From Marinicella marina (GTDB taxonomy: Bacteria; Pseudomonadota; Gammaproteobacteria; Xanthomonadales; Marinicellaceae), in assembly GCF_030065545.1 (NCBI RefSeq), contig NZ_JASJNC010000007.1, forward strand, positions 310,001 to 374,000: a stretch of DNA of 64,000 bases, given 5' to 3'. Below are positions 5,942 to 49,017 of this stretch, one piece after another. Numbering within the stretch: position 1 is the first letter of the stretch; each line of letters opens with the position of its first letter. Both the position numbers and the translations under genes were made by a program. The notes below the pieces were generated by a model, which was not told the DNA's origin, did not search any database, and was given only the letters and a program-made list of their open reading frames with translations.

Positions 5942-6368
5942 GTATGTGCTTGGCATCGATTTTGGCCAAAAACGCATCGGCCTGGCTGTTGGCCAAACAC
6001 TCAGTTATGCCGCAAACCCAACCAAGGTCTTGCCGAACAACAAAGATTTTTTCAAACTGCTAAGCGAAGAAATCAAAGAATGGAATATCAGCCAAATCAT
6101 CATAGGCTTGCCTCTGGGCATGGACGGAGAAGAACAAGAAATAACCAGACAGGTCAAAAACTTCAGTCAAAAAGTTCAGCGGCACAGCCAACTACCCGTG
6201 CACCTGGTTGATGAACGGCTGAGTTCGTATGAGGCGGAACGGCGTTTTGCTGAGAGCCGATCGGCGCAAATGAGTAAAGCCAAGGACAAAAAAAACATAG
6301 ATGCCTTTGCCGCACAAATAATTTTGCAATCTTGGTTAGATCAACAACAATTAAAAAGCATGCCATGA
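5934..6368 (+). CDS. ruvX: RuvX/YqgF Holliday junction resolvase-like nuclease
   Basis: 144-residue RNase H-fold protein, the usual YqgF length. Conserved acidic motifs are visible: LGIDFGQKRIGLAVG near the start, IIIGLPLGMDG in the middle, and HLVDERLSSYEAERR plus KKNIDAFAAQIILQSW towards the end. The family is implicated in processing of pre-16S rRNA 5' ends and, in some bacteria, Holliday junction resolution. It overlaps yqgE upstream, and its stop overlaps the pyrB start (ATGA). Confidence 0.93.
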   Translation: MPEYVLGIDFGQKRIGLAVGQTLSYAANPTKVLPNNKDFFKLLSEEIKEWNISQIIIGLPLGMDGEEQEITRQVKNFSQKVQRHSQLPVHLVDERLSSYEAERRFAESRSAQMSKAKDKKNIDAFAAQIILQSWLDQQQLKSMP

Positions 6369-7264
6369 AACATTTAACTGATATCAAGTCACTCTCAAAA
6401 TCAACCATACTGGAGCTGTTTGCGTCCGCTGAAAAAATCTCAGCCAGCGACATCACTGCAACCAAAAAATGGCACCCAGGTAAATCTGCCATTGCCTTAT
6501 TCTTTGAAAACTCGACCCGAACACTGGCTTCATTCCAACTGGCTTGTCAACGCCTGGGAGTTGATGTGACTGCATTGAATGTGGCTCATTCATCGACCCA
6601 AAAAGGCGAGACCATCAAGGACACTGTATTGACCTTGAATGCCATGCAACCTGATTTATTCATTGTCCGCCATCATGAAAATCACATCCAAGATAAGATA
6701 GTTGATTGGATTGGCCAAGAAACCGGTGTCATCAATGCCGGAGATGGCAGCCACCAGCACCCCACGCAAGGCTTACTTGACCTATTCACCATCTGGCAAC
6801 ACAAACAACAATTTGATGATTTAAAGGTCACCATCATCGGTGACATCAAACACTCAAGAGTGGCCAACTCATTGATTGATGGCTTGCAGCTCATGCAAAC
6901 CAAAGAGGTGGTTGTCTATGGGCCTGATGCCCTCATTCCTGAGCAGCTCAATGCGCTAAAAGCAAGCAACATGAAATCGGCCCTATGTGATGCTGATGTG
7001 GTGGTGATGCTGCGCATTCAAAAAGAACGCTTACCCAAAGACACCCATGTTGACTTCAGTCAGTGGCACCAACAATATGGTCTGAACAGTGAAAATTTAA
7101 AAGCAGCCAAAGCCGACGCCATTGTGATGCACCCAGGACCTATGAACCGCGGTATTGAAATCACCGACCGGGTGGCCGATGGCGAACAATCAGTGATACT
7201 GCAGCAAGTCAGAAATGGCGTGTTGATGCGCCAAGCCATCATTCATAGGATGCTAGAACTTTGA
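6365..7264 (+). CDS. pyrB: Aspartate carbamoyltransferase catalytic subunit
   Basis: 299 residues from ATG 6365. The enzyme makes N-carbamoyl-aspartate from carbamoyl phosphate and aspartate, the committed step of pyrimidine synthesis. The carbamoyl-phosphate loop ENSTRT is at residues 48-53, with GDGSHQHPTQGLLDLF, TIIGDIKHSRVANSL and the C-terminal MHPGPMNRGIEI typical of the family. A longer frame upstream is possible but the ATGA overlap with ruvX and the family N-terminus favour 6365. No pyrR or pyrC-like gene follows, unlike Pseudomonas. The 3' end overlaps the convergent MAPEG gene by 12 bases. Confidence 0.95.
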   Translation: MKHLTDIKSLSKSTILELFASAEKISASDITATKKWHPGKSAIALFFENSTRTLASFQLACQRLGVDVTALNVAHSSTQKGETIKDTVLTLNAMQPDLFIVRHHENHIQDKIVDWIGQETGVINAGDGSHQHPTQGLLDLFTIWQHKQQFDDLKVTIIGDIKHSRVANSLIDGLQLMQTKEVVVYGPDALIPEQLNALKASNMKSALCDADVVVMLRIQKERLPKDTHVDFSQWHQQYGLNSENLKAAKADAIVMHPGPMNRGIEITDRVADGEQSVILQQVRNGVLMRQAIIHRMLEL

Positions 7265-46769: not shown

Positions 46770-46799
46770 TTTACACCATCAGATTATTGGGTTTATAAT
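46770..46799 (+). promoter_or_regulatory. Predicted sigma70 promoter of the EAL-DUF6502-DEGTG operon
   Basis: TTTACA (46770-46775; five of six) and TATAAT (46794-46799; six of six) separated by 18 bases. The start site would fall about 14-20 bases before the EAL gene start, giving a very short leader. Confidence 0.7.
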
Positions 46800-46819
46800 A
46801 AACCTGTTCAATTTTGACC

Positions 46820-47512
46820 ATGTTTATGAATTTAATTGCATTTCAACAAAACACCCAGACTGACTTGAGGTTCGCCCTTCAAGAAATCATGGGTGCTGAT
46901 ATGCAAAGCCAAAACTGGTTAGAGATGCTGTATCGCCCCACCAACTTACTAGGTAACACTGATGTTGAGCGTTACTTCAAATCCCTGAACACCCAACAAA
47001 AAATAGAATTGGATATTCAAATATTCAATCAAATCCCTCGAATCCTCGAACAAGAACAACCGTCGAGGTTGAGTGTCAATCTGACTCCGATCAGCCTATT
47101 GAGTGATGCATTCAAAGAAAATCTAATGCGCCTGATCGACAACCGCTTGATTGCACCAGAGAACATGTGTATTGAAATCATTGAAATACATTCCATGCCG
47201 ACTCTTTCTAACAGCTCCATCGATCTGTTGAAATATTTCCGTAGCTTGGGTGGCTGGATTGCTTTAGACGACTTTGGTTCAGGCTTTGCTCACTGGGATT
47301 TGTTACAAATAGGTCTGATTGACGTCATCAAAGTGGCCAATCAAAACCTGTCTTACCGAAGAGAAACACCCACATTTACCGAAGGATTGGCTAAATTTGC
47401 CGATGCCATGAAGATCAACACCGTGTTAGAAGGTGTTGAGACCAAACAGGACTTTATCAAAGGCAGAAACCAAGGTTTCAAGAACTTTCAAGGGTGGTAT
47501 TTCAATGAGTAA
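46820..47512 (+). CDS. Small EAL-domain protein (putative cyclic di-GMP phosphodiesterase)
   Basis: 230 residues from ATG 46820 (a further ATG at 46826 and a TTG at 46814 are possible). It is essentially a lone EAL domain with no transmembrane helix. The EAL site reads WLEMLYRP (EML in place of EAL), followed by SVNLTPISL, the metal-site glutamate in CIEIIEIHSM, ALDDFGSGFAHWDLL with the DDFG motif, DVIKVA, and VLEGVETKQDF. The main catalytic acids and the lysine seem present, so activity is plausible though the motif is divergent. Its stop overlaps the DUF6502 start (ATGAGTAA), so both are probably translated together. First gene of an accessory operon. Confidence 0.8.
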   Translation: MFMNLIAFQQNTQTDLRFALQEIMGADMQSQNWLEMLYRPTNLLGNTDVERYFKSLNTQQKIELDIQIFNQIPRILEQEQPSRLSVNLTPISLLSDAFKENLMRLIDNRLIAPENMCIEIIEIHSMPTLSNSSIDLLKYFRSLGGWIALDDFGSGFAHWDLLQIGLIDVIKVANQNLSYRRETPTFTEGLAKFADAMKINTVLEGVETKQDFIKGRNQGFKNFQGWYFNE

Positions 47513-48374
47513 ACATAATACACAAAACAAACAAAACTTATCATTCAATAGTTATTGGCTTGATTTTATTGGAACCTGCATCAGACCAATGGTAAAAATA
47601 TTAGTAAAGAACAAGGTTGAATTTAAATCATTCAGTAACTTATTGCGGGAAATCTACGTTGAAGAAGGCGAGAATCACATCAATAAAGTAAGTAGTAATT
47701 CACGCGGGAAAATATCTTCGATAGCACATCAAACAGGACTAGATCGAAGAGAGGTTTCTGCCATACTCAAAGCCAAAGATTTAGTAACTCATACCAATGC
47801 TGCAAGATCAAGAGAAGGAAATATTCTCGATCATTGGGTATCAAATCCCCCTTTCTGTGATGATAAAGGCAACCCAACCCCCTTGAAACGAAGCGGTTCA
47901 GGATTATCATTCGAAGTACTTACACAAAGATTTGGGAAAAACATCAGTCATGGTCCTATTCTCGAATCGTTAATCGAAGCTGGTTGTGTTGAAATCAAAG
48001 ACAACAAGGTTCATTTGATTAAAAAATCATTCGTGCCTAAAGAAGCGGTCAGTGTGGCAAAAATTGAAATAGCAGCCAATTCAATCAAACGATTAACTAA
48101 TACCATCGCACACAATTTTGATCATGAAAATGACACCAATTTCCAAAGAAACTTATTTTCTATTCAAATTCCCGAAGAACATATTCCCGCTTTTCGTCAT
48201 GAAGTAACTGAAATGATGAAAGCACTGTATGAAGACACCATAACCACCAAGTTTGAAGCAATAGAAGATAAATACGCCAGCATCACGGTTCCAAAAAACC
48301 AAAACAGAATTGGCCTAGGATTCTTTTATTTCGACGAAAACCAAACACTTCACAAAACATTTAAGAGAAACTGA
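47505..48374 (+). CDS. DUF6502 family protein (putative regulator)
   Basis: 289 residues from ATG 47505; the frame opens upstream at 47433 inside the EAL gene. Family features are CIRPMVKILVKNKVEFKSFS near the start, VYVEEGE-like IYVEEGENHI, the helix-turn-helix-like ISSIAHQTGLDRREVSAILK, then ILDHWVSNPPFCDDKGNPTPL and GLSFEVLTQRFGKNISHGPI. DUF6502 has no established function; the winged-helix-like segment suggests DNA binding or a scaffold for it. The C-terminal 100 residues differ. It overlaps the EAL gene and ends 1 base before the repeat protein, so the three genes likely form one functional unit. DNA here is AT-rich relative to flanking genes. Confidence 0.75.
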   Translation: MSKHNTQNKQNLSFNSYWLDFIGTCIRPMVKILVKNKVEFKSFSNLLREIYVEEGENHINKVSSNSRGKISSIAHQTGLDRREVSAILKAKDLVTHTNAARSREGNILDHWVSNPPFCDDKGNPTPLKRSGSGLSFEVLTQRFGKNISHGPILESLIEAGCVEIKDNKVHLIKKSFVPKEAVSVAKIEIAANSIKRLTNTIAHNFDHENDTNFQRNLFSIQIPEEHIPAFRHEVTEMMKALYEDTITTKFEAIEDKYASITVPKNQNRIGLGFFYFDENQTLHKTFKRN

Positions 48375-48375
48375 T

Positions 48376-49017
48376 ATGAAAAGAGCAGAAACTGAAGGTA
48401 CAGACATTAAATTCTTCGCAGAAACAGAAGGAACAGACATCAATCAAGAAACTGTATTTGATAAAAAAGAGCAAAGATTTTTGAATAAAAGCAATGCCAT
48501 TTTGTATAAACATTTCATGTTAGTTACCTTAGCGCTGTTCATTTCTCAGCCTATATTTGCTGCTGATATTAATTTATTCACCACTGATGGCGAGAGCTTC
48601 AAGGGGGTTTTAAATACTGATTCTAAGGTTGAGTTTATTGAAGGAATTTTAGAAGGAAAAACAGGCTCATTCATTCTCAACAACACAATAAGTGGCATCA
48701 AAGCAACTGATGAGGGTACTGGCAATAAAGCTGCAAACAATGGTTTTGTTTTCCAGGCCACAGATGAAGGCACCGGAACACCAGCAACAGATGAAGGAAC
48801 TGGAGGATTACTTGCAACAGATGAGGGTACCGGCAGTCCTGCAAATTCGATAGAACTTGATAACCGCGTATTAACAGTCAATTTATCATGTGAAGAGAAT
48901 TCAGCCAATTCCAATGCAGAGATTGAATCAAACAAGGGCATAGAGTTTATGGATATTGGAAAAATTAGTATTAACGGAAATTCAGTAAATGTATGCAAAT
49001 ATTTAAGTAAGTTATAA
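48376..49017 (+). CDS. Secreted protein with ATDEGTG repeats, function unknown
   Basis: 213 residues. Four copies of ATDEGTG lie at about 110-116, 128-134, 137-143 and 147-153, and two related AETEGTDI copies lie at 4-11 and 15-22. A hydrophobic stretch at about 46-63 (HFMLVTLALFISQPIFA, then AD) looks like a signal peptide, so the first repeats lie ahead of it. Two cysteines (172 and 207) are near the C-terminus. A TTG at 48481 would give a standard-looking signal peptide (LNKSNAILYKHFMLVTLALF) and exclude the first repeats. No known domain recognised. One base separates it from the DUF6502 stop; expression is probably linked to the EAL and DUF6502 genes. Confidence 0.7.
   Translation: MKRAETEGTDIKFFAETEGTDINQETVFDKKEQRFLNKSNAILYKHFMLVTLALFISQPIFAADINLFTTDGESFKGVLNTDSKVEFIEGILEGKTGSFILNNTISGIKATDEGTGNKAANNGFVFQATDEGTGTPATDEGTGGLLATDEGTGSPANSIELDNRVLTVNLSCEENSANSNAEIESNKGIEFMDIGKISINGNSVNVCKYLSKL

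Follow-up and report, generated by a model that had tools for sequence, protein, structure and literature searches.

An accessory operon of Marinicella that pairs a DUF6502 protein with a predicted exported GTG-motif protein, and a candidate operator at its promoter

What does a protein of the uncharacterised DUF6502 family do between a lone EAL-domain gene and a gene for a secreted-looking protein with ATDEGTG repeats? These three genes lie in the 64,000-nucleotide stretch of Marinicella marina DNA that we analysed (the window). We consider it fairly probable, from comparison of the locus with its relatives, that they form an autoregulated operon, in which a DUF6502 dimer would bind a dyad at its own promoter and control the exported partner.

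A three-gene accessory operon of Marinicella

As read in the sequence, a promoter, the EAL gene, the DUF6502 gene and the repeat-protein gene (REP) follow one another on the forward strand, between secA-mutT and an oppositely oriented mazG (Table 1). The sequence-only reading had described the three open reading frames and the promoter with their coordinates and overlaps, and all of these could be read directly in the sequence. The AT-rich composition that it reported was also found, with a GC fraction of about 0.34-0.42 in the block and about 0.40-0.48 in the flanks, and the secA-mutT and mazG neighbours that it named adjoin the operon wherever the contigs of relatives extend far enough. TTTACA and the ATAA of the -10 element are kept across nine aligned genomes (alignment A3). 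The EAL gene has an alternative TTG start at 46814. A search for known anti-phage defence with PADLOC matched 0 families to the three operon proteins (E up to 0.001).

Table 1. Features of the operon (window positions).
Feature	Position	Strand	Basis or remark
Sigma-70-type promoter: TTTACA, 18-base spacer, TATAAT	46770..46799	+	-35 at 46770-46775, -10 at 46794-46799; read in sequence
Putative operator, imperfect dyad AAACCTGTTCAA-TT-TTGACCATGTTT	46800..46825	+	10/12 pairs by eye; covers predicted transcription start, runs into EAL start
Lone EAL-domain gene, 230 aa	46820..47512	+	Pfam EAL PF00563, E 3.2e-23
DUF6502 gene, 289 aa	47505..48374	+	Start overlaps EAL stop; Pfam PF20112, E 2e-28
Predicted exported repeat-protein gene REP, 213 aa	48376..49017	+	Begins 1 base past DUF6502 stop
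Two pre-signal motif copies AETEGTDI	48385..48408 and 48418..48441	+	Sequence reading; upstream of REP signal peptide
REP hydrophobic signal-peptide segment, AxA-like end (IFA/AD)	48496..48561	+	By eye, alignment A8; model helix 31-55
REP array, four ATDEGTG motifs	48703..48834	+	Predicted disordered, a beta region on either side

An ortholog of the DUF6502 gene (at least 52% identity) was found in 12 of 18 genomes of the genus, the window genome included. All 12 carry the EAL gene before it and REP after it, at the site between mutT and mazG, with contig ends cutting the EAL gene in L050 and REP in L047. In a 13th genome, G014, REP and the end of the DUF6502 gene lie beside mazG at a contig end. 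The site is empty in G001, G004 and G017, where mutT adjoins mazG and the operon is absent. In all, 13 of the 18 genomes carry all or part of the operon and three have an empty site, with G007 and G010 left unassigned. Because the order is kept in 12 genomes and three others have an empty site, we call the operon a stable accessory unit of Marinicella. The term accessory in the sequence-only reading was therefore apt, and so was its description of a self-contained unit: gene order is kept, promoter and dyad are kept in front, and the site in relatives is cleanly empty. Relatives of the window DUF6502 gene (10 loci) are from Marinicella sediminis, M. litoralis, M. meishanensis, uncultured Marinicella and unclassified Gammaproteobacteria/Lysobacterales. 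A phage origin was considered and dropped; viral contigs held no relative.

Partners of DUF6502 genes in other bacteria

We surveyed 185 genomes of the class, the window genome among them, and found DUF6502 in 51. The other 50 held 69 DUF6502 places once split pieces were joined; after setting aside five weaker places and four pieces at contig edges we used 60 loci, which come from 48 of the 50 genomes. A downstream ORF was called exported by a hydrophobicity filter, and 275 control ORFs were taken from the same crude ORF caller. The DUF6502 gene was followed by a predicted exported ORF in 51 of the 60 loci, and in 21 of these 51 the two genes overlap by 4 bases. The nine others, in which no exported ORF was detected (L085, L094, L100, L109, L121, L130, L141, L142 and L143), are filter misses, mis-called frames or real exceptions.

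G[TS]G occurred within the first 170 residues of 49 of the 51 exported partners (49/60 loci, L114 being counted through a GSG that is probably chance), compared with 35 of the 275 other ORFs. For GTG itself the figures were 44/51 in partners, 14/275 in other ORFs and 8/100 in signal-like ORFs. Two exported ORFs without the motif make up, with the nine above, the remaining 11 loci. An alignment of the 51 partners has five columns conserved in more than 90% of rows, namely the Met at the start, all three Gly of GxxGxG and a single Gly further on. The general motif is GxxG[TS]G; outside the genus it is mostly GGIGGTG and usually goes with DUF5666 domains. A DUF5666 (PF18914) match was found in 41 of the 51 partners and was lacking in 10, so the feature shared by DUF6502-coupled partners is, at the level of sequence, the motif and not the fold. 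Among DUF5666-type proteins from the 60 loci plus further loci, recognised by a sequence signature and not by the Pfam model, 27/28 coupled to DUF6502 have the motif and 0/14 uncoupled ones do, after five rows (L112, L120, L125, L134 and L138) had been moved by hand to the adjacent class because other readings of these loci place them directly after DUF6502; before the move the counts were 22/23 and 5/19. The strict pattern misses DISGSG in coupled L096 and LSGTG in uncoupled L121.

The usual partner of DUF6502 is thus a DUF5666 protein that resembles REP in being exported by prediction, in being encoded directly after DUF6502 and in having a GTG motif near the mature N terminus. REP differs from these partners in that it lacks a DUF5666 match, has an array of motifs and carries copies before the signal peptide. 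The window genome also contains two further DUF6502 genes, each directly before a DUF5666 gene (G000:C18:18742-19521, L012, and G000:C21:175555-176337, L013); each exported partner has two QGGTG after the signal, and the translations of these loci contain no EAL ORF beside the DUF6502 genes. Some class partners are unusual in other ways. Those of L118, L124, L131 and L133 are very small (93-134 residues), with one or two GTG motifs past a signal-like segment. L128 (G184:C60:2500-12600) has two tandem DUF6502 genes, and its partner (ORF 6264-6854) has an array of GISVGD, not GTG. Arrays of 3-6 GIGGTG-type motifs were seen in the N-terminal part of the partners of L123, L126, L129, L139, L159 and L165, so the motif has been multiplied outside Marinicella too.

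The sequence-only reading had proposed scoring how often DUF6502 genes lie close to an EAL gene and a gene with DEGTG-type repeats. In a broadened form the second half of this pairing is general, with an exported G[TS]G protein after DUF6502 in 49 of the 60 loci, but the literal DEGTG array is the form of the genus. The coupling of a DNA-binding-type protein to an exported repeat protein, which that reading had also suggested, is upheld by the gene order in the genus and by the motif partner in the class. The EAL half of the proposal failed: a search of the 60 DUF6502 loci from the 48 other genomes of the class with a genus-EAL profile (E up to 1e-4) found a same-strand EAL gene in none (0/60) and an opposite-strand EAL ORF in two. 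The EAL gene is therefore a genus addition, and these loci do not support a general system that includes a cyclic di-GMP enzyme.

The EAL protein has most of the catalytic residues of such an enzyme. It matches the Pfam EAL profile at 82.8 bits (cut-off 31.3), and E35, N87, E119, E122, D150, D151, K171, E204, E207 and Q224 are invariant in 11 orthologs; the catalytic residues are those listed in work on RocR and BlrP1. A profile match at 3.7e-18 to the lone EAL phosphodiesterase domain of BlrP1 (3gfx) covers residues 14-228 and aligns the EAL Glu. Differing from BlrP1-type domains, the window protein and its orthologs have EML or ELL in place of EAL and an Ala for the Asp after the active-site Lys (Ala173, two residues past that Lys; Ala in all aligned orthologs). 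We dropped the notion of a degenerate domain lacking the EAL motif, as the profile aligns E35 with the EAL Glu. In Marinicella the first gene of the operon encodes an EAL protein with most catalytic residues, so it is probable that the operon also acts to lower cyclic di-GMP, or reacts to it; the EAL protein may couple the operon to this messenger. It seems to us rather unlikely that the EAL protein plays the leading part, with the exported protein as an adhesion or matrix factor under cyclic di-GMP control. The place of the EAL gene as the first in 12/12 genomes and the invariant catalytic residues of its product agree with such a role, whereas the lack of same-strand EAL genes at other DUF6502 loci and the substitution of one Asp in the active-site region argue against it.

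Candidate operators at DUF6502 promoters

The window DUF6502 protein is a near full-length, divergent member of its family. It matches PF20112 at 99.5 bits (cut-off 27) over model positions 12-265 of 268 and protein residues 26-280, and among 398 genomes of the phylum its best match beyond the genus scores 104 bits, compared with 484 against itself. No paper in the literature searched contains the name DUF6502. A putative helix-turn-helix-like segment lies near residues 68-89 (GKISSIAHQTGLDRREVSAIL), and all helix-turn-helix matches of the protein are weak. The AlphaFold2 model is weak as a whole (pLDDT 52, pTM 0.28), with helices at 69-77 and 81-89 at a local pLDDT of about 75. No significant match in the PDB was obtained by sequence or by a fold search, in which this low-confidence model was the query. 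Compared with other DUF6502 proteins, that of the window belongs to a subfamily of its own, with a different dyad and an EAL gene in front.

The window dyad is near-invariant in nine genomes, and the whole block of -35, -10 and a 26-base dyad directly after the -10 is conserved among relatives, with 32 of the 35 positions 261-295 of alignment A3 (window-row numbering) invariant in nine sequences. The dyad is also kept in two divergent genomes, L051 and L052, whose EAL gene begins in a different frame, suggesting that it is conserved as DNA. Allowing up to 3 mismatches, it is the single such site in the genome (0.02 expected in the window). As a palindrome it is not exceptional, with a score of 8 compared with 6.0 +/- 1.1 in shuffles, so the case for it rests on its conservation. 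A paralog group of six genomes has a conserved near-palindrome of its own, whose best copy is ATTTGCAATATATATTGCAAAT; this site occurs once in the window genome (1 mismatch), at its own DUF6502 operon. Of the other paralog groups of the genus, one of six has no clear dyad and one of three has none conserved.

When the DUF6502 upstream regions of 59 class loci were scanned for palindromes, z averaged 1.5 and exceeded 2 in 17 loci, and a TGGGA...TCCCA core recurred. The 482 kb of the 60 loci contain 39 exact TGGGA-N5/6-TCCCA sites, where about 0.9 would be expected from uniform bases, and six control patterns in the same 482 kb gave 0, 0, 1, 0, 1 and 3. Of the 39 sites, 21 lie near the DUF6502 start (20/60 loci), and at least 9 of the remaining 18 precede DUF5666-type genes of the same loci. 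When the spacing was relaxed, exact matches occurred in 19/60 DUF6502 upstream regions compared with 14/336 regions upstream of the other genes at these loci; tolerating one mismatch as well raised the counts to 30/60 and, in controls, 30/336. Among held-out loci from the phylum, which played no part in discovery, 11 of 14 have the exact family site. Over all 74 loci it is present in the searched upstream stretch of 31 and absent from that of 43.

The spacing of the site varies with the residue that precedes the Arg in the putative recognition helix. Where that residue is not His the spacer is N6 (14/14), and where it is His the spacer is N5 (12/12), these 26 cases being those with both readable; since both features may track a split into two clades, the cases are not independent of one another. 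By eye, a T at -8 and a G at -7 from the dyad centre are common to the N6 family sites, the paralog site and the window site.

These observations bear on whether DUF6502 itself binds the dyads. They could be bound by another, global regulator, with DUF6502 serving as, for example, a chaperone for the exported protein, and the want of a confident structural match between DUF6502 and a DNA-binding fold fits such a role. We regard it as quite improbable, since the sites are few per genome (scan of 10 genomes), differ between DUF6502 paralogs of one genome and vary with the DUF6502 helix type. Seven sites unlinked to DUF6502 were also examined: two lie 45 and 82 bases before DUF5666-type genes and five have no such neighbour. 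In L186 (G097) and L195 (G201), an unlinked TTGGGA-N6-TCCCA stands directly before a DUF5666-type gene far from DUF6502, which suggests a small DUF6502 regulon.

Taken together, these comparisons support well the operon and its conservation, the pairing of motif and regulator and the existence of conserved dyads. From them we infer that DUF6502 is a dimeric helix-turn-helix protein that binds the dyad at its own promoter, and that it probably autoregulates. Binding at 46800-46825 would cover the predicted transcription start (about 46806), so repression would be its simplest role, and DUF6502 would in this way control the gene for the exported protein that directly follows its own.

The predicted exported protein and its motif

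REP was found in 12 further genomes of the genus. It has no match in Pfam (up to E 10, DUF5666 included), NCBIfam or PADLOC. An exact degenerate DNA pattern finds ATDEGTG four times in REP and nowhere else in the 3.46-Mb genome. The codons of the motif vary from copy to copy, a hint that selection acts on the protein. Copies are spaced mostly by 9, 10, 11 or 12 residues, varying by ortholog, and the fixed period expected of solenoid or RTX-like repeats was not found; with spacing that changes between species, the array resembles a short linear motif more than it does a solenoid. The AlphaFold2 model (10 sequences, pLDDT 58.5, pTM 0.42) has a disordered N terminus, a helix at 31-55, strands at 63-102 and 164-204 and, between them, a disordered stretch at 105-160 (pLDDT about 30) that holds the array. 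With modest confidence, REP is modelled as a small beta domain that displays a tag-bearing loop. The protein would take the Sec route, fold as such a domain and present a short xGTG motif several times over in the loop.

The motif also stands ahead of the signal peptide, in the window as the two AETEGTDI copies, which the sequence-only reading had left unmentioned. [AS]E[TS][ED]GT[GD] occurs there in 1-4 copies in 13/13 REPs, and copies of [AS]x[DES][DEN]G[TS]G follow the signal in 12/12 uncut REPs (in that of G014, a single good copy plus a second that is degenerate). In 8 of 12 cases, which do not include the window, a ribosome site resembling GGAG or GAGG lies just upstream of the long REP start, and translation of the pre-signal stretch is therefore probable. 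The first residue of the motif, Ala or Ser, agrees before and after the signal in 12/12 REPs. This state has switched independently only about two times on the tree, so the support from this agreement is modest.

What, then, is the motif for? One answer is a role in the envelope only, as a ligand- or metal-binding site, a site of modification or processing or a surface for a partner, with DUF6502 regulating the gene and never touching the motif. We give this nearly an even chance. Most motif copies lie past the signal peptide, as it would have them. We also looked for coevolution of DUF6502 with the Ala/Ser state and rejected the signal because the 10 columns that segregate with it (2 of 462 splits reach 10) compare with a mean of 9.7 in a tree simulation; this, too, is what the envelope role would give. 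It sits less well with the pre-signal copies in every REP of the genus and with their matching first residue, few as the switches are, or with a motif that, subject to the five moved rows, tracks coupling to DUF6502 and not the DUF5666 fold.

Signalling by peptides seems to us very improbable. In the RRNPP-type pairs of Gram-positive bacteria, the gene of a cytosolic regulator adjoins the gene of an exported protein with a short motif, a layout shared with the window operon. By analogy, REP would be a multi-copy precursor whose processed peptides re-enter the cell and bind DUF6502. The adjacency of regulator and exported motif protein, often with the 4-base overlap, the near-identical short motifs with variable linkers and the few partners of just 93-134 residues are consistent with this. 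But neither a protease nor an importer is encoded in the three-gene unit, most partners have 240-520 residues and 41 of 51 match DUF5666, and the REP array is predicted to lie inside a beta domain. DUF6502 systems differ from RRNPP-type pairs also in regulator family and host group.

More speculatively, within the autoregulation that we favour, the motif may tie the exported protein to DUF6502 and unexported protein may feed back on the regulator. DUF6502 would then read the xGTG tag on partner that has yet to be exported and adjust transcription, a circuit gauging export in several classes of one phylum. In Marinicella the tag would have been multiplied and would flank the signal peptide, which would let the cytosolic part of the pre-protein be read apart from the exported array. 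We regard this extension as doubtful.

These results would give the uncharacterised DUF6502 family a concrete job, that of an autoregulator acting through a named DNA site, the spacing of which varies with helix type, and would point to genes of DUF5666, likewise an uncharacterised family, as its likely targets. If it is true that the regulator reads the motif, this would be a new way of coupling gene expression to protein export.
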